DNA from: an uncultured SAR116 cluster alpha proteobacterium | GTDB taxonomy: Bacteria; Pseudomonadota; Alphaproteobacteria; Puniceispirillales; Puniceispirillaceae | Assembly (NCBI GenBank): GCA_902622515.1 | Contig: CACNQE010000001.1 | Location: forward strand, 124,001-188,000 | DNA: 64,000 nt | Direction: 5' to 3' | Part shown: piece after piece, positions 50,132 to 57,247 of the stretch | How the letters are laid out: each line of letters opens with the position of its first letter | Position numbering within the stretch: position 1 is the stretch's first letter | Position numbers and translations under genes: made by a program | Notes under the pieces: model-generated | The model's input: the letters and a program-made list of their open reading frames with translations, nothing else | The model's database searches: none | Told to the model about the DNA's origin: nothing

Positions 50132-51511
50132 TTAGTTTTCTGGAATCCCTACTGATTTTAATTTTCTATAAAGTGCAGACCTTTCCATTTCAATAAATTT
50201 CGCCATTTGGGTAATATTTCCATCAAATCTTTTCATTTGCGATATTAAATACGCACGTTCAAACTTTTCTCTAGCTTCTCTTAGAGAATATGACATGAAT
50301 ACTTCGTTTAGCATTTGACCTTCATCACTAGTATTATTGTTTGTATTAAATTCAGGGAGAGCAGATACACCGAGAGGGTCTTTATTTTCATCAGAAGATA
50401 AAATCATGATAGTTTCAATCACATTTTTGAGCTGCCTGACTGATCCTGGCCATGGTAGAGCTCGCAATGCATTTAGCAGATCTTCTCCTAATTTTACTGG
50501 GTTTTTTCCGAGTAATTCTGACTGCTGCTGAACAAAATGCTTTGCCAATAACGAAATGTCTCCCCTTCTTTGTGAAAGTTCTGGGACATATATATTCACC
50601 ACTGCGAGCCTATAGTATAAATCTTCTCTTAACTTACCTTTTTCTATCATTTCCTGAGGATTTTCGTTTGTAGCAGAAATTATTCGAACGTCAGATATTA
50701 TTTCTGACATTCCTCCTATTCTTCTAAATCTTTGTTCGGTAACGGCACGCAGAATACGGGCTTGCATATTAGCTGATAGGTCACTAATTTCATCAAAATA
50801 GAGGGTTCCTAAATGGGCCTGCTCGAGTAAACCAACTATTCTTCTCCCATACTGGAAGTTTTCAGAACCAAAAAGTTCTGCATCTGCTTTTTCTCCAGTT
50901 AATCTACTACAAGAAACTACAACAAATGGGTGTTCGGACCGAGATGACCGATTATGAATTAATCGTGCAACAGTCTCTTTACCTGAACCCGGTCTTCCCT
51001 GAATTAAAACTCTGCTTGATGTTGGTGCTATTTTTTCAATATCATTTTTAAGTTGCTTAATTTTAGGGGCATTACCAATAAAGTCCGGTTCTTTATATAC
51101 TGCAGTTCTAGCTCTAAGTAATTGATTTTCAATTTCTAAACGTTTTGCTTGCAAAGCTCTCCTTACAGTCAAAATCAACCTTTCAGCTTTAAAAGGTTTT
51201 TCTATAAAATCATAAGCACCATTTCGAATTGCTTCAACGGCTGTGGATATTGTTCCATGCCCAGAAATCATCAATATAGGCATATCCGGATAGATTTCTT
51301 TACACCAGCTAAGTAATCCAAGACCATCCATGTCAGAATCACGCATCCATATATCTAAAATTGCGCAAGATGGTAATCTCTTTGATACAATATCGCGAGC
51401 CTGCTCTGCGTTAGCTGCCTGAACAGTTGAAAATCCCTCATCCTCAAGTGTAAGACTCAACAACGAACGAATATCCGATTCATCATCAACAATTAAAATT
51501 TCTTCACTCAC
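50132..51511 (-). CDS. ntrX: NtrC-family response regulator NtrX
   Basis: 459-aa regulator of the NtrY-NtrX pair. The receiver domain has the acidic pair VDDES, phosphorylation site D53 and K105 in EKPF. The AAA+ domain has Walker A GRPGSGKE (172-179) and Walker B TLYFDEI (236-242). The GAFTGA loop that contacts sigma-54 is replaced by NFQYGRRIVG. The C-terminal Fis-type helix-turn-helix is GNITQMAKFIEMERSALYRK. NtrX of this group is known to work without sigma-54. Start overlaps the ntrY stop by 4 bases. Confidence 0.94.
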   Translation of the reverse strand: MSEEILIVDDESDIRSLLSLTLEDEGFSTVQAANAEQARDIVSKRLPSCAILDIWMRDSDMDGLGLLSWCKEIYPDMPILMISGHGTISTAVEAIRNGAYDFIEKPFKAERLILTVRRALQAKRLEIENQLLRARTAVYKEPDFIGNAPKIKQLKNDIEKIAPTSSRVLIQGRPGSGKETVARLIHNRSSRSEHPFVVVSCSRLTGEKADAELFGSENFQYGRRIVGLLEQAHLGTLYFDEISDLSANMQARILRAVTEQRFRRIGGMSEIISDVRIISATNENPQEMIEKGKLREDLYYRLAVVNIYVPELSQRRGDISLLAKHFVQQQSELLGKNPVKLGEDLLNALRALPWPGSVRQLKNVIETIMILSSDENKDPLGVSALPEFNTNNNTSDEGQMLNEVFMSYSLREAREKFERAYLISQMKRFDGNITQMAKFIEMERSALYRKLKSVGIPEN

Positions 51512-53709
51512 TTTTCATTACCCTTTGATGATTTTTCTCCTGAGAGAGGGATTGAGATTTCAATTTGGGCACCTCCCTCTGAATGATTTTGTAATTTAAT
51601 CTGACCAGAATGTTCCTGAATAATTTTTTGCACTATTGCTAAGCCGAGTCCAGTACCTGCATCACGACCACTAACGTATGGCTCAAATAACTTAGACAGA
51701 TTTTTTGTTCGAAATCCTGGTCCATTATCCCTAATATCTATATAAACCGATGTCCAATCATTTCTTAAACTCACCCAGATAGTCGCTCTCTCGACTTTAC
51801 TTTCCTTGAGTATATCAATTGAATTTTGGAACAGATTCGCAAACACTTGTCTAATGAGCCCAGAATCAGCATCTACGAAAACTGGTTCTGGTGGTTTTGA
51901 TAACAGTATCTTAATATGGTTATCTTCATCTTGATACAAATGAATTTGTTCCTCAACAAGCGCTGTTAGCTCTTGTTTTGCAAGAACTGCTGATGGCATT
52001 CGCGCAAAACTAGAAAATTCATCTACCAACCTTCCAATATCGCCAACTTGCCTACTGATAATAGTCAAAAATTGGTCAAATTGTTCTGCTTTTTTAGGGT
52101 CCTCTGGCCTATATTTTTTCAATAACCTATCTGCTGCAAGCTCAATTGGTGTGAGTGGATTTTTTATTTCATGAGCAATTCGTCTTGCTATATCTGACCA
52201 AGCTGCTTTGCGCTGAGCAGACAATAAATCAGTTACATCATCAAAAGTAACAACATATCCTACTATTCTTTTTTCAATTTCTTCAGAGGTTATGCCAGCT
52301 TGAAGGAAAAGCTGTTGCTCATTCCGAACAATCATTAACTCAGCATTATGTTTGCGTTTTTTGCCTTGCTTGATTACGTCAAATAATTCTGAAAATTCTG
52401 GTAAAATATCAGTTAGCTGACTCCCGATGAGTTGTTGTTTTGTATAACCAAGCAACGAACAAGCAGCTGTATTTGGAAGAGTAATAATACCTTTATTAGT
52501 TAATCCAATTACACCAGAAGAAACACCTGATAAAACTGCCTCTGTAAATTCACGTCTTTGGTCAAGTTGCTTGTTTGCGTGTACAAGTTGCCTTTGAGTC
52601 GAAGATAAATCGTCCATCATTCTATTGAAACTAATCCCTAATAGAGAAATCTCATCTAAATCTGTCTTTATATCAACCCTTGAATTTAAATCACCTGCTC
52701 TCACTGAGTCTGCAACTAAGATTATTCCTCTAAGAGGCTTAGTTATTGCGCTGGACAAACTAAGACCAATCCATAGTGCTGAAAGTAAGAGAAATAATGA
52801 TATAACAGCAAAAATTGCTGCCATGGAAATCTGAAGGTCAAATTGTCGAATAGATAGCGATTGATAATCAGAGACTGCTAATCGCGTTTTATCGACCGCT
52901 TCAAGTACATCAGAATCGATAAAACGCCCGACAAGTAGGTAGGCATCTACGAAATTGTTAAGTTTAACAAGAGCCTGTATCTTCGTGTTATCATCTGTCC
53001 TTGTTATAACAACTTCGTCATTTCTAACACGGTCCAACCAATCGCTATCCAATTCGGAAAAGATAATAGAAAATGCAAACCTTGACTTTGCAATTATTTG
53101 TCCAGTTCCATCTAATATTACAGCTTCAGAGAGATTTCTGATTCCAACTTGGTCAGTTATAAATCTATTAAAAATTTGCTTATTCTGGGCTAATTTTAAC
53201 CCATCTCTGTTTACGTCATTTGCCATTGCGAGAACTTGTCCTCTAATAGAACGTGTATGTTCTTCTAGATAAGCATCTGCAATTGTTACAGAGTCATTTA
53301 CTGCGGTAGAGATGCGCTCTGAAAACCAACCTCGTAGTGAATAATCGACAACCGAAACTGCAAAGCTTGCGACTATTATTGATGGAAATACTGTTAGCAA
53401 ACCAAACAAAACGGCAAGCCTCATTTGTAATTGAGAACCAGCCTTCTTTTGCTTTTTTTCAACAAAAAGCCTAATTATTTGCCTTATTATAACAAAAAGT
53501 AACCCTATTAAACAAAGGCTGACACCCAAAAAAATAAATATTAAAAGATCAGATTGTTTAGGCAATGTCTCTACGGTAGAAAGAGCAAGAAAGCTTAATA
53601 TACTTATTAAAACACTGATTAAAACAACACCAGAAATTAACTTCAATAACTTTATAAAACTTATCTCATTAGTATCTTGGATAAATGATTTTGTGTTGCG
53701 AATTCGCAT
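51508..53709 (-). CDS. ntrY: Nitrogen regulation sensor histidine kinase NtrY
   Basis: 733-aa membrane kinase. Three hydrophobic segments (about 23-46, 54-80, 97-122) and one more at about 293-320 flank a periplasmic domain. HAMP (about 320-370), PAS (about 390-490), HisKA with H513 in RIAHEIKNPLTP, and HATPase with GTGLGLAIVQKI follow. Phosphorylates NtrX; in relatives it senses redox/oxygen or nitrogen. The ntrC gene lies 9 bases upstream. Confidence 0.95.
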   Translation of the reverse strand: MRIRNTKSFIQDTNEISFIKLLKLISGVVLISVLISILSFLALSTVETLPKQSDLLIFIFLGVSLCLIGLLFVIIRQIIRLFVEKKQKKAGSQLQMRLAVLFGLLTVFPSIIVASFAVSVVDYSLRGWFSERISTAVNDSVTIADAYLEEHTRSIRGQVLAMANDVNRDGLKLAQNKQIFNRFITDQVGIRNLSEAVILDGTGQIIAKSRFAFSIIFSELDSDWLDRVRNDEVVITRTDDNTKIQALVKLNNFVDAYLLVGRFIDSDVLEAVDKTRLAVSDYQSLSIRQFDLQISMAAIFAVISLFLLLSALWIGLSLSSAITKPLRGIILVADSVRAGDLNSRVDIKTDLDEISLLGISFNRMMDDLSSTQRQLVHANKQLDQRREFTEAVLSGVSSGVIGLTNKGIITLPNTAACSLLGYTKQQLIGSQLTDILPEFSELFDVIKQGKKRKHNAELMIVRNEQQLFLQAGITSEEIEKRIVGYVVTFDDVTDLLSAQRKAAWSDIARRIAHEIKNPLTPIELAADRLLKKYRPEDPKKAEQFDQFLTIISRQVGDIGRLVDEFSSFARMPSAVLAKQELTALVEEQIHLYQDEDNHIKILLSKPPEPVFVDADSGLIRQVFANLFQNSIDILKESKVERATIWVSLRNDWTSVYIDIRDNGPGFRTKNLSKLFEPYVSGRDAGTGLGLAIVQKIIQEHSGQIKLQNHSEGGAQIEISIPLSGEKSSKGNEK

Positions 53710-53718
53710 TGCTATGGC

Positions 53719-55134
53719 CTATTTATATCCATCACGAGAAAGAGGTAGGTTCAATTGTTTTATCTTTTTCCTTAATGTATTTCTGTTTATACCTAGTATT
53801 TCCGATGCCTTTATCTGATTTCCTGATGTTCGTCTCATTGTAGCATAGATAAGAGGTTTCTCTACTTCTCTTAAAATCTTGTCAAATAAACCTGAGGACG
53901 GCAAATCATCTCCAATAGAATTAAAATATTTTTCAATATGATATTTTGCTGATTGACCAAGAGAAGTTTTTTTATCTTCAGATGAATCATTTTGCAATTT
54001 TCCCAATTCAGTTAAAACTTCAGAAACCGTAATTTCATTTGAGTCTGCGTTTACAAAAAGGCGCCTAATGACGAATATTAATTCTCGCAAATTTCCTGGC
54101 CAATTCCAGTCTTGCAGATGGTCAACTGCCTCAGTCTGTAATGTTTTATTAATACCAAACTCATCGCTCAAACGGTTGCATATTAGATTAGCAAGCAATT
54201 TTACATCTTCAAGTCTATCTCTCAATGGAGGTACTGTTAAATAAGCAGATGATAGAAAAAAATATAAATCATCTCTAAACAAGCCCTCTGATACATGTTT
54301 CCTAAGATCGACACAGGTGCCAATAATAATTCGGTTTGGACGATATGGGCTTTTTTCTAGTTTATCTAAATAACTCATCATTGCTCTTTGTGCATCAATG
54401 GATAAGAGCTCAATATTATTTATAAATAAATTTTTCTTAGACGCTGATTTTAATATACTTTCTTCTCCAAATAATAGATTGAAATGATTATTAGAATTCG
54501 TATATGACATATTAATTGAAACAAATTCTGTATTTGTATGATCGCCAATTTGACATAAAGTGTGGGCGATTTCTTCTTTTTCTGCACCAGCCTCTGCATG
54601 AATCAAAACTGGAACATTTGAAGTAGAATATTTTGTTAACAATTTAAAGGTATTCTGCATTATCGCTGATTGTCCTGCTAATGGAATGGCAATGGTTTCA
54701 GGGATAGAAACTTCAATTGTTTTAGAATTGTTCGGTGATATAGCTCCTATACCTCCTTGAGTGGAATAGAGCTTTGCCGCACGATTACATACCTCAATTA
54801 ACTTTCCCAACTCAAATGGCTTCGGAAAATACTCAACCACATCGTATTTTTTTGTTTTGATTGCTGTTAATAAATTAGTCCTCGCGCTCATTACGATAAT
54901 TTGAAGGTCTGGCCGTTTTTCTTTAATTCTTGGGAGAACATCGAGCACATCCCCGTCTGGAAATCCAACATCTGTTATGAGTATATTGCCTCTCTCGGAC
55001 ATAGCATAATCCCAAAGGCCAGCTAATGTAGTAACTGCAGAGACCCTATACCCTTGTCTTGTCAATGCATGTACAAGAAAAGTTCTCACAGACTTATCAT
55101 CATCTGCCACTATAAATTGTGCTATCAAACCCAT
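53719..55134 (-). CDS. ntrC: NtrC-like response regulator with degenerate AAA+ domain
   Basis: 471-aa NtrC by position and architecture. The receiver looks functional (D11-D13, D55, S83, K105) and the C-terminal Fis-type helix-turn-helix is intact (IKASEILGINRNTLRKKIKQ). The central domain is damaged: Walker A reads AEAGAEKE (180-187) instead of GESGTGKE, the GAFTGA loop is absent with about 12 residues missing after LFG (221-223), and the Walker B DE is NN (NLFINNI, 235-241). The arginine-finger segment (FRDDLYF) and WPGNLRE remain. ATP hydrolysis and sigma-54 activation should be lost, while phosphorylation and DNA binding may persist. One-base overlap with ntrB; no frameshift. Confidence 0.92.
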   Translation of the reverse strand: MGLIAQFIVADDDKSVRTFLVHALTRQGYRVSAVTTLAGLWDYAMSERGNILITDVGFPDGDVLDVLPRIKEKRPDLQIIVMSARTNLLTAIKTKKYDVVEYFPKPFELGKLIEVCNRAAKLYSTQGGIGAISPNNSKTIEVSIPETIAIPLAGQSAIMQNTFKLLTKYSTSNVPVLIHAEAGAEKEEIAHTLCQIGDHTNTEFVSINMSYTNSNNHFNLLFGEESILKSASKKNLFINNIELLSIDAQRAMMSYLDKLEKSPYRPNRIIIGTCVDLRKHVSEGLFRDDLYFFLSSAYLTVPPLRDRLEDVKLLANLICNRLSDEFGINKTLQTEAVDHLQDWNWPGNLRELIFVIRRLFVNADSNEITVSEVLTELGKLQNDSSEDKKTSLGQSAKYHIEKYFNSIGDDLPSSGLFDKILREVEKPLIYATMRRTSGNQIKASEILGINRNTLRKKIKQLNLPLSRDGYK

Positions 55135-56267
55135 TAAGACCTATCCCTATTGCGGTTAATCGACTTCAAGTTTTTAATTTTTGTGCTAATGGGAAGATTG
55201 ATTTTAAAATGTGTTTCACCCACGCATGAGCTTACATCAATAGCCCCACCATGCTCTGAAACGACTGAAGCCACAAGGGCTAAACCTAGTCCAGAACCAC
55301 CTGATTTATTAGATACAAAGGGCTCAAATGCATAACCCAATAACTCGGGTGAAATTCCGCTGCCAGTATCAATAACATCTATTTGAAGAGGCAAATGATT
55401 TAATCCATATTGGTCAGAAGTAGAATGTGGAGAAGATAATGCGTAAGAGGTTTTAATAATCAAATTATCATTTTTCTGAGTAGCTTCAGACGCATTTTTA
55501 AATAGATTAAGAAAAAGTTGGATAAAAAGATCTCTATCTGCATCAATCATTGGTAATGACGGGTCAAAATCTCTCTGAATAATCAGATGTTTTCCATAGG
55601 ACGCTTCGATGACCATCAAACAATGGTCTAAAATTTCATGTATATTAATTTCTTCTAATTGAAGGGGTTTATCTGCAGAGAGCTTTTCAATTCTCTCCAG
55701 TAATTTTATGATTCGATCAGTTTCCGTCACAATAAGATGACTTAATTCTTGATTTTCTTTTCCAAGTTCTAACTCCAAAAGTTGAGCAGCTCCTTTAATG
55801 CCAGCTAATGGATTCCTGATCTCATGTGCTAAAAGTGCTGTTACTTTTGACATAGATAAAGCTGCACCCTTAAATAAGTTTCGAGATTTTGCAACCTGCT
55901 CAAGCGTATTTTTTTGCAATGAAATAACAATAAATTCGTCATTTGCATCGAATAGGCCAACTTGGATATTAACAATCGTTTCTTTCAATCTAGGTGCAGT
56001 TATGCCTACGGAATGCTCACTTAGCGAACTTTTCGTCAGCCTTGCTCTCGAAATCATTTTAATTAAAACCGAGTTTGAGCTGAAATATTCTTCTGCAGAA
56101 CCTCCATTTAAAATCGCAAGACTTGAATTAAAAAAAATCTCAGCTGCATGATTGATCCATACAAAAAAATTATTTTTATCAATTATAATTATTGGGTACG
56201 GTAATGAATCTAATACAGCATAGCCCGCTGGAAGAGACACCAAATCATCTAATATATCTGACTGCAC
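55134..56267 (-). CDS. ntrB: Nitrogen regulation histidine kinase NtrB
   Basis: 377-aa cytoplasmic kinase/phosphatase for NtrC, normally controlled by PII. N-terminal PAS (residues ~20-120), HisKA with H148 in LLAHEIRNPLAGIKGAAQLL, then HATPase with N-box LFKNASEA, DTGSGI and GGSGLGLALV. All catalytic motifs are intact, unlike its partner's ATPase domain. Starts with GTG overlapping the dusB stop as TAGTG; stops inside the ntrC start as TAATG. Confidence 0.95.
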   Translation of the reverse strand: MQSDILDDLVSLPAGYAVLDSLPYPIIIIDKNNFFVWINHAAEIFFNSSLAILNGGSAEEYFSSNSVLIKMISRARLTKSSLSEHSVGITAPRLKETIVNIQVGLFDANDEFIVISLQKNTLEQVAKSRNLFKGAALSMSKVTALLAHEIRNPLAGIKGAAQLLELELGKENQELSHLIVTETDRIIKLLERIEKLSADKPLQLEEINIHEILDHCLMVIEASYGKHLIIQRDFDPSLPMIDADRDLFIQLFLNLFKNASEATQKNDNLIIKTSYALSSPHSTSDQYGLNHLPLQIDVIDTGSGISPELLGYAFEPFVSNKSGGSGLGLALVASVVSEHGGAIDVSSCVGETHFKINLPISTKIKNLKSINRNRDRS

Positions 56268-57247
56268 TAAGCCGCCTCACATTGCTTTTCAAAAAATCTA
56301 TCAACAGCCTTAAACACTATACTTGAATTATGAGTATTGTTGGCGACATCGCGTAAAGCAGCGGAGCCAGGCAAACCATAAGCATACCAAGCAATATGTT
56401 TACGAGCAAGGCGCATACCATTCGAACCGTAGCAGACAAGCATATCTTCTAAATGAGCTAGCATTATATCTCTTCTTTGATTGATAGTTGGTGTATTTCT
56501 TATTCTTTTCTTGGACAATAAATCTCCCGCTTGACCTATTATCCATGGTCTTCCCTGAGACCCTCTTCCAATCATAACACCATGTGCGCGTGAAAGTTTC
56601 ATTGCTGTTTCTACATCATTCAAGTTATTTATATCCCCGTTCACTAGAACGGGAATTGAAACCTTCTCTACTGTTTTTTTTATTTCATACCAATCAGCTT
56701 TACCCTTATACATCTGGTTACGCGTTCTACCATGCACAACTAGCATTTTAATGCCTACATCCTCAGCAATCATGCCAATTTCAGGCGCGTTCTTATTCTT
56801 ATCGTTCCATCCCAATCGCATCTTCAATGTAACAGGAACACCTACTGAATTTACAACAGCAGAACAAATGTTTGCAGTTTGTTCAGGATATTGCATAAGC
56901 GCAGACCCAGAATACCTCCCTGTAACTTTTTTTGCAGGACAACCAAGATTAATATCAATTAATGATGCCCCAAGTTGTTCTGAAATTTTTGCAGCCTCTG
57001 CCATAATTTCTGGCTCCCATCCGGCCAGTTGAATTGAAAGAGGCGCCTCTTCTTTTGCAGAGAATTTAAGCTTTCTAATTTCTTTTTTTAATGAATTTAA
57101 AACAGCATGACTTGCAATCATTTCTGAAACTACAAGACCCCCACCTAATGATCGCACAATTCTCCGAAATGGCTGGTCTGTAATTCCAGACATCGGTGCT
57201 AATACCGCAGCATGTGGAAGTTTTATTGATCCAATGTTAAGTTGCAT
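56267..57247 (-). CDS. dusB: tRNA-dihydrouridine synthase DusB (NifR3)
   Basis: 326-aa FMN enzyme reducing uridines in tRNA D-loops. TIM-barrel start APMSGITDQPFRRIVRSLGG, catalytic Cys in INLGCPAKKVTGRYSGSALM, then KMRLGW, VHGRTRNQMYKGKADW and GVMIGRGSQGRPW. As nifR3 it classically begins the ntrBC operon in alphaproteobacteria, and here overlaps ntrB by one base. Divergent from ispDF with a 119-bp gap. Confidence 0.96.
   Translation of the reverse strand: MQLNIGSIKLPHAAVLAPMSGITDQPFRRIVRSLGGGLVVSEMIASHAVLNSLKKEIRKLKFSAKEEAPLSIQLAGWEPEIMAEAAKISEQLGASLIDINLGCPAKKVTGRYSGSALMQYPEQTANICSAVVNSVGVPVTLKMRLGWNDKNKNAPEIGMIAEDVGIKMLVVHGRTRNQMYKGKADWYEIKKTVEKVSIPVLVNGDINNLNDVETAMKLSRAHGVMIGRGSQGRPWIIGQAGDLLSKKRIRNTPTINQRRDIMLAHLEDMLVCYGSNGMRLARKHIAWYAYGLPGSAALRDVANNTHNSSIVFKAVDRFFEKQCEAA

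Follow-up and report, generated by a model that had tools for sequence, protein, structure and literature searches.

Genes and features at the locus

The window, a 64,000-nucleotide (64 kb) stretch of alphaproteobacterial DNA, carries a dusB-ntrB-ntrC-ntrY-ntrX gene cluster, assigned by Pfam and NCBIfam profiles and by inspection (Table 1). The open-frame check places ntrC on the minus strand, a detail absent from the initial annotation. The best NCBIfam match of the product is TIGR01818, the NtrC equivalog model, at 287.6 bits against a curated cut-off of 558.6, and the protein displays the receiver pocket, Fis-type helix-turn-helix (HTH), NtrC-like operators, synteny and tree placement of an NtrC orthologue. 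Its named sequence matches (74–94% identity) belong to uncultured SAR116 cluster alphaproteobacteria or to an alphaproteobacterial MAG, and we take it as the true NtrC of an alphaproteobacterium of the SAR116 cluster (Puniceispirillaceae-type). As initially claimed, D55, K105 and the HTH are kept in an unbroken frame; the residue check found D12, D13, D55, S83, Y102 and K105 of the receiver all intact, together with HTH residues 439–461.

Table 1. Positions in the window of ntrC, its parts and its neighbours; omega values are indications (see Selection on ntrC).
Feature	Position	Strand	Basis
ntrC, motor-dead NtrC orthologue, 471 aa	53719–55134	minus	unbroken frame
Receiver domain, residues 8–118	54781–55113	minus	Pfam PF00072, residue check, omega 0.023
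AAA+ core, residues 153–304, predicted fold, catalytic motifs degenerate	54223–54678	minus	PF14532/PF00158, AlphaFold, omega 0.102
Degenerate Walker A AEAGAEKE, residues 180–187, K186 kept (relatives GESGTGKE)	54574–54597	minus	alignment
Loop 1 remnant without GAFTGA, 12 residues fewer than in E. coli	54436–54477	minus	alignment
Degenerate Walker B FINNI, residues 237–241 (relatives FLDEI)	54412–54426	minus	alignment
Trimmed pre-sensor-I loop (loop 2), KLEKSPYRPNRI	54328–54363	minus	alignment
Finger motif FRDDLYFFLS, with the first R but not the second	54250–54279	minus	alignment
AAA+ lid, residues 305–380, sensor II WPGNLREL kept	53995–54222	minus	PF25601, alignment
Fis-type HTH region, residues 413–471	53722–53898	minus	PF02954, omega 0.044
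ntrB, cognate kinase	55134–56267	minus	visual inspection (H-box, ATP-binding boxes)
ntrY kinase	51508–53709	minus	PF19312, HAMP, PAS, HisKA, HATPase
ntrX, without GAFTGA; Walker A GRPGSGKE, Walker B YFDEI, finger REDLYYRL intact	50132–51511	minus	profiles, alignment
dusB-like gene preceding ntrB, the usual gene order at ntrBC	56267–57247	minus	sequence inspection

State of the AAA+ motor

Alignment with E. coli NtrC agreed with the motor losses listed in the initial annotation. Walker A changes from GESGTGKE to AEAGAEKE, and Walker B from FLDEI to FINNI, the acidic pair being replaced by N239 and N240. Between LFG and the strand preceding Walker B there are 22 residues in E. coli and 10 in the window protein, which leaves the latter 12 residues short and without GAFTGA. 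The list was nonetheless incomplete: it had missed that loop 2 is about 7 residues shorter than in E. coli, that the second arginine of the finger is lost (FREDLFHRLN to FRDDLYFFLS), and that K186 and G183 of Walker A are retained, two residues that are invariant in 13/13 motor-dead sequences of the family tested. Sensor II, WPGNxREL, is also retained. When compared to a sigma-54-dependent bEBP, the window protein is without an intact GAFTGA loop, Walker A, Walker B or arginine finger; when compared to an R. capsulatus-type NtrC, it shares the absence of GAFTGA but not the intact ATP site, K186 and G183 being all that is left of Walker A. From these motifs, ATP hydrolysis is probably absent. 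The same motor-dead state was seen on alignment with the orthologues of close relatives, in all nine full-length NtrC copies of the window's genus, g1 (the other eight are 72–94% identical to the window copy), and is thus neither chance nor an assembly error.

The structure was predicted with AlphaFold2 from an alignment of the loci proteins only, the E. coli row being excluded. Mean pLDDT was 86.6, with AAA+ block means of about 84–95; the predicted AAA+ domain matched NtrC1 and bEBP AAA+ domains with a target-normalised TM of about 0.8, and the best whole-chain fold match was Brucella NtrX (PDB 5m7n-p). The AAA+ domain is predicted to be still folded and, with a confident fold and lost catalytic motifs, would resemble a folded scaffold without the catalytic parts. 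A folded but dead subunit might borrow activity in trans from the ATP-site-intact NtrX within a mixed oligomer, and in this respect NtrC does keep its first finger arginine, while NtrX keeps its Walker A, Walker B and finger residues in all nine genomes. We regard such an oligomer as very unlikely, as NtrC shares only about 25% identity with NtrX and both loops are lost in the motor-dead NtrC.

Selection on ntrC

Omega was calculated as pooled Nei-Gojobori dN/dS for pairs within the window's genus, with the adjoining NtrX, whose ATPase motifs are intact, as internal control for selection. The receiver and HTH of NtrC appear to be under strong purifying selection, with omega at 0.023 for the receiver, 0.102 for the AAA+ domain, 0.128 for the lid and 0.044 for the HTH; these are indications and not a formal test, the pairs sharing branches, some being close and one lying near synonymous saturation. 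For the same genome pairs, the NtrX values were 0.031, 0.050, 0.070 and 0.070 in that order, and the AAA+ omega of the ATPase-intact NtrC of genus g6 was 0.02–0.04 in comparable pairs. These indications suggest that the AAA+ domain of the window-genus NtrC is relaxed two- to four-fold yet clearly constrained, while the receiver and HTH seem constrained like those of an ordinary regulator.

The AAA+ omega, about twice that of NtrX, is what might be expected of a gene decaying towards a pseudogene, a reading to which we give next to no credence: the frames are open in all full-length g1 copies, omega is 0.02–0.13 in every structured domain and so far below 1, the operators are conserved, and the motor-dead form persists across five genera. 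Nine intact copies and low omega rule out a pseudogene or an assembly artefact.

Stepwise loss of the motor across the order and class

A match to the window NtrC was obtained in 61/61 family genomes searched, and the full-length copies form two groups. The motor-dead genera are g1, g2, g7, g8 and g11; the first Walker B acid is replaced by N in 13/13 of their representatives, with the finger arginine lost and loop 1 gone. Walker A reads AEAGAEKE or AEAGSVKE in the window's genus, and GSGK is kept by several g2 and g7 members. In genera g5 and g6 the ATPase motifs are intact and GAFTGA is absent. Sampled copies from g9 and g4 (L239, L240) carry GAFVGA in place of GAFTGA with a fully intact ATPase, apparently an intermediate that differs from the full motif by its threonine alone. 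The sister family f123 has a fully intact NtrC (GAFTGA, GESGTGKE or GESGSGKE, FLDEI). The NtrX of the window's genus lacks GAFTGA while keeping all ATPase motifs in the nine genomes.

Elsewhere in the same order, copies from families f124 and f125 (L230–L238) mostly have a GESGTGKx Walker A, with Walker B reading YLDNI, FIKDI, YVKNI and similar; GAFTGA is absent, loop 1 being deleted or scrambled, and in f124 the finger arginine is lost as well. This dismantling is apparently separate from that in the window's family. A BLAST survey of the class yielded 67 best matches, 61 of them intact, four lacking GAFTGA only by a three-motif test, and two (L168, L179) also lacking Walker B. These two NtrC-like proteins, from other alphaproteobacterial families, have no GAFTGA and a degenerate Walker B, LPDVAE in L168/L242 (genome G131) and LNGISN in L179/L241 (genome G162; L179 is partial), and look like further independent cases of motor loss.

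For an NtrC tree, the columns of the motor motifs were left out of the alignment; the tree is a quick one, with no bootstrap, some long branches and uneven composition. The window protein falls in a clade with its own family and f123 (SH-aLRT 99), within which the family's motor-dead clade (SH-aLRT 100) stands beside the family's ATPase-intact clade. The ATPase state requires at least five changes on this tree. The distribution fits an order of loss in which GAFTGA would have gone first, then Walker B and the finger, and the Walker A lysine last.

The late survival of this lysine bears on another explanation, namely that the protein is an ATP-binding, non-hydrolysing switch like R. capsulatus NtrC, in which nucleotide held through K186 stabilises the active oligomer at sigma-70 promoters. 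The invariance of K186, which G183 shares, could mean that some nucleotide binding persists or that the lysine is needed structurally; the GSGK of g2 and g7 and the GESGTGK of most f124/f125 copies despite a lost Walker B point the same way, and R. capsulatus NtrC itself reportedly needs ATP binding but not hydrolysis, according to the account of Bowman and Kranz 1998 given in PMC10274813. In the window's genus, however, two of the three Walker A glycines and both Walker B acids are gone, which makes coordination of Mg-ATP unlikely. We consider this explanation improbable, though a more serious contender than the others, and nucleotide binding through K186 is the main uncertainty in the mechanism proposed below.

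Putative NtrC operators and promoters at the PII genes

The window's genome encodes GlnD-type proteins; in it, glnA comes after glnB, and amtB after glnK. Putative operators were sought by consensus match to TGCA-N9-TGCA, the geometry of the enterobacterial NtrC site. A perfect box was found upstream of glnBA in 9/9 genomes of the genus and upstream of glnK-amtB in 7/7, while most of the intergenic DNA around these boxes has diverged among the genus genomes. Conservation around the glnK box extends over a longer block that holds additional TGC half-sites, which suggests cooperative binding. Genome-wide there are 51 such sites, a count that is no evidence by itself since the reversed-pattern control (2 sites) is an unfair background for a palindrome; we relied instead on the intergenic position and conservation of the boxes. 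Among 48 loci inspected, five lie between genes, two of these being the PII promoters of glnB and glnK, and the crude chance of both PII promoters having a box within 300 bp is 5e-5. Within the 64 kb window, the two matches found are at chance level. A third, divergent P-II-like protein of the window's genome (C2:9979-10257, L043), matched at a low score of 36 bits, has no NtrC box in the 350 bp upstream.

At glnBA the box stands 35–36 bp above TTGCA[A/T/C]-N17-TA in 9/9 genus genomes, a layout like that of a sigma-70 promoter whose activator is centred near -80. The GG-N10-GC pair of a sigma-54 promoter, with the GG of the -24 element, is absent in 8/9. The single genus member with this spacing at glnB (G036, L051; GGTCAGATAGTTGCA) possibly retains a relic of a sigma-54 promoter; read as a sigma-54 site, it would speak against our main reading. 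We speculate that the conserved TTGCA was once the -12 element of a sigma-54 promoter and now serves as a -35. No clear -35/-10 was defined at glnK. A perfect glnK box is absent in the other motor-dead genera, so the regulon differs there. In the window's genome the glnK operator (C1:333639-333655, L083) is flanked on one side by glnK-amtB and on the other, at 41 bp, by a divergent LysR-type gene, both of which may be controlled.

These positions help to separate the two roles offered in the initial annotation, a plain phospho-switch at sigma-70 promoters or a repressor. That the protein represses, or serves as an architectural, Fis-like DNA-binding protein, would suit its Fis-type HTH and the glnK box 41 bp upstream of the LysR-type gene, and Caulobacter NtrC both activates and represses, its own operon included (PMC10274813). 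This role seems unlikely to us, because the invariable place of the glnBA box upstream of the predicted promoter is activator-like and because the Caulobacter orthologue activates glnBA and glnK (PMC10274813). The phospho-switch appears the better fit of the two, given operators at glnBA and glnK without -24/-12 elements and a sigma-70-like promoter at fixed glnBA spacing.

Sigma-54 is retained

The window's genome contains rpoN and two receiver-less activators with Walker motifs and GSFTGA. A genome search with PF00158 returned NtrC, NtrX, these two activators and unrelated AAA proteins only, with no second intact NtrC. The outcome initially named as contrary, a second intact NtrC beside rpoN with the present copy evolving neutrally, was thus found in one part, rpoN, the copy not being neutral. 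There are 16 sigma-54-type promoter sites (TGGCAY-N5-TTGCW) in the genome, several of them directly upstream of flagellar-like genes (FlgB-like, FlgG-like and FliS-like, named by inspection).

Beyond the window's genome, every g2, g7 and g11 genome tested has rpoN, which together with its presence here rules out loss of sigma-54 as the cause of motor loss. The gene was not found in some g1 assemblies, which are incomplete, nor in 4/4 g8 genomes (G043–G046; two at 91% and 98% completeness), making g8 a candidate for a lineage that lost sigma-54 altogether. With rpoN, the GSFTGA activators and sigma-54-type promoters kept, NtrC has been uncoupled from sigma-54 and not orphaned by its loss.

Proposed mechanism

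We favour, at a probability of roughly 0.6, a motor-less, phosphorylation-controlled NtrC that was converted from an ATP-driven sigma-54 activator and acts at housekeeping promoters. NtrB would phosphorylate D55, and the receiver would work through the folded, non-hydrolysing AAA+ domain as an assembly scaffold. Phosphorylation would help dimers or oligomers to bind cooperatively, via the HTH, to the TGCA-N9-TGCA operators in front of glnBA and glnK-amtB, and the bound protein would activate sigma-70 (housekeeping) RNA polymerase by contact from about -80, without remodelling. Motor-motif loss, purifying selection, the kept receiver, HTH, NtrB and GlnD, the conserved operators and rpoN can all be read from the sequence; from the same data, direct binding at the glnB and glnK boxes, sigma-70 dependence of the targets, and activation rather than repression are probable.

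More broadly, we see even odds that these orthologues form a natural series from a full sigma-54 motor to a motor-less phospho-switch on the same core nitrogen genes, with several independent alphaproteobacterial origins and sigma-54 kept for flagella, and that ATP hydrolysis, perhaps even ATP, is dispensable for NtrC control with a sigma-70 promoter.

Comparison with known systems

NtrC is the textbook ATP-driven transcription activator, and its uncoupling from sigma-54 while sigma-54 stays would make the label "sigma-54-dependent regulator" wrong for such proteins in a common ocean lineage. GAFTGA-less NtrC and sigma-70-acting bEBP paralogues are already known (PMC3162934, PMC10274813). The literature searched, whose silence does not prove absence, yielded no SAR116 NtrC and no NtrC orthologue lacking both Walker motifs; new relative to that literature are an NtrC that has had its Walker A, Walker B, finger and two loops dismantled while protein and operators stay conserved, and a series of stepwise losses that recurs.

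HupR of R. capsulatus and TyrR and DhaR of E. coli are paralogues among the sigma-54 activators; they have no GAFTGA any more and work with sigma-70 (PMC3162934), but they are not the nitrogen regulator NtrC. Alphaproteobacterial NtrX is another orthologue group, of which the window's own member shares the absence of GAFTGA and keeps its ATPase motifs. Vibrio cholerae VpsR is NtrC-type, lacks GAFTGA and acts at sigma-70 promoters, reportedly with no need for ATP (PMC10274813), and its solved structure (7v2b) is among the fold matches of the window NtrC; it is no NtrC orthologue, binds c-di-GMP and reportedly does not require phosphorylation.

Rhodobacter capsulatus NtrC is an NtrC orthologue with GAFTGA deleted, as in Rhodobacterales, and it activates sigma-70 polymerase in a phosphorylation-dependent manner, as related in PMC10274813 from Cullen 1996 and Bowman and Kranz 1998. 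Similar copies in our class survey, L171 and L175, keep GESGTGKS, DE and the finger arginine, whereas the window NtrC has lost all but the lysine; ATP binding is reported as essential in R. capsulatus, again through that second-hand account, while the ATP site here is degenerate. The initial annotation was right that more of the motor is lost than in that case, and it did not name the VpsR precedent. Caulobacter crescentus NtrC, also without GAFTGA, is linked to sigma-70 promoters and has glnBA and glnK as direct targets, both activated, with the phosphorylation site D56 needed at glnBA (PMC10274813). Either K178A in Walker A or D235A in Walker B abolishes its function (PMC10274813); an ATP site can therefore be important even where the promoter is of the sigma-70 type, and loss of the motor is no trivial next step; the acid matching D235 is N in the window protein, and we judge this requirement for both Walker residues to be the chief counter-evidence to a motor-less reading. 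The ATP need of GAFTGA-less NtrC is thus unsettled, R. capsulatus reportedly requiring binding only, in that same summary, and Caulobacter both Walker residues. The SAR116 lineage offers natural orthologues for each stage (GAFTGA present; GAFVGA in its place; GAFTGA lost but ATPase kept; Walker B lost but Walker A kept; everything lost), so that what each part of the motor contributes at a sigma-70 promoter is directly testable.
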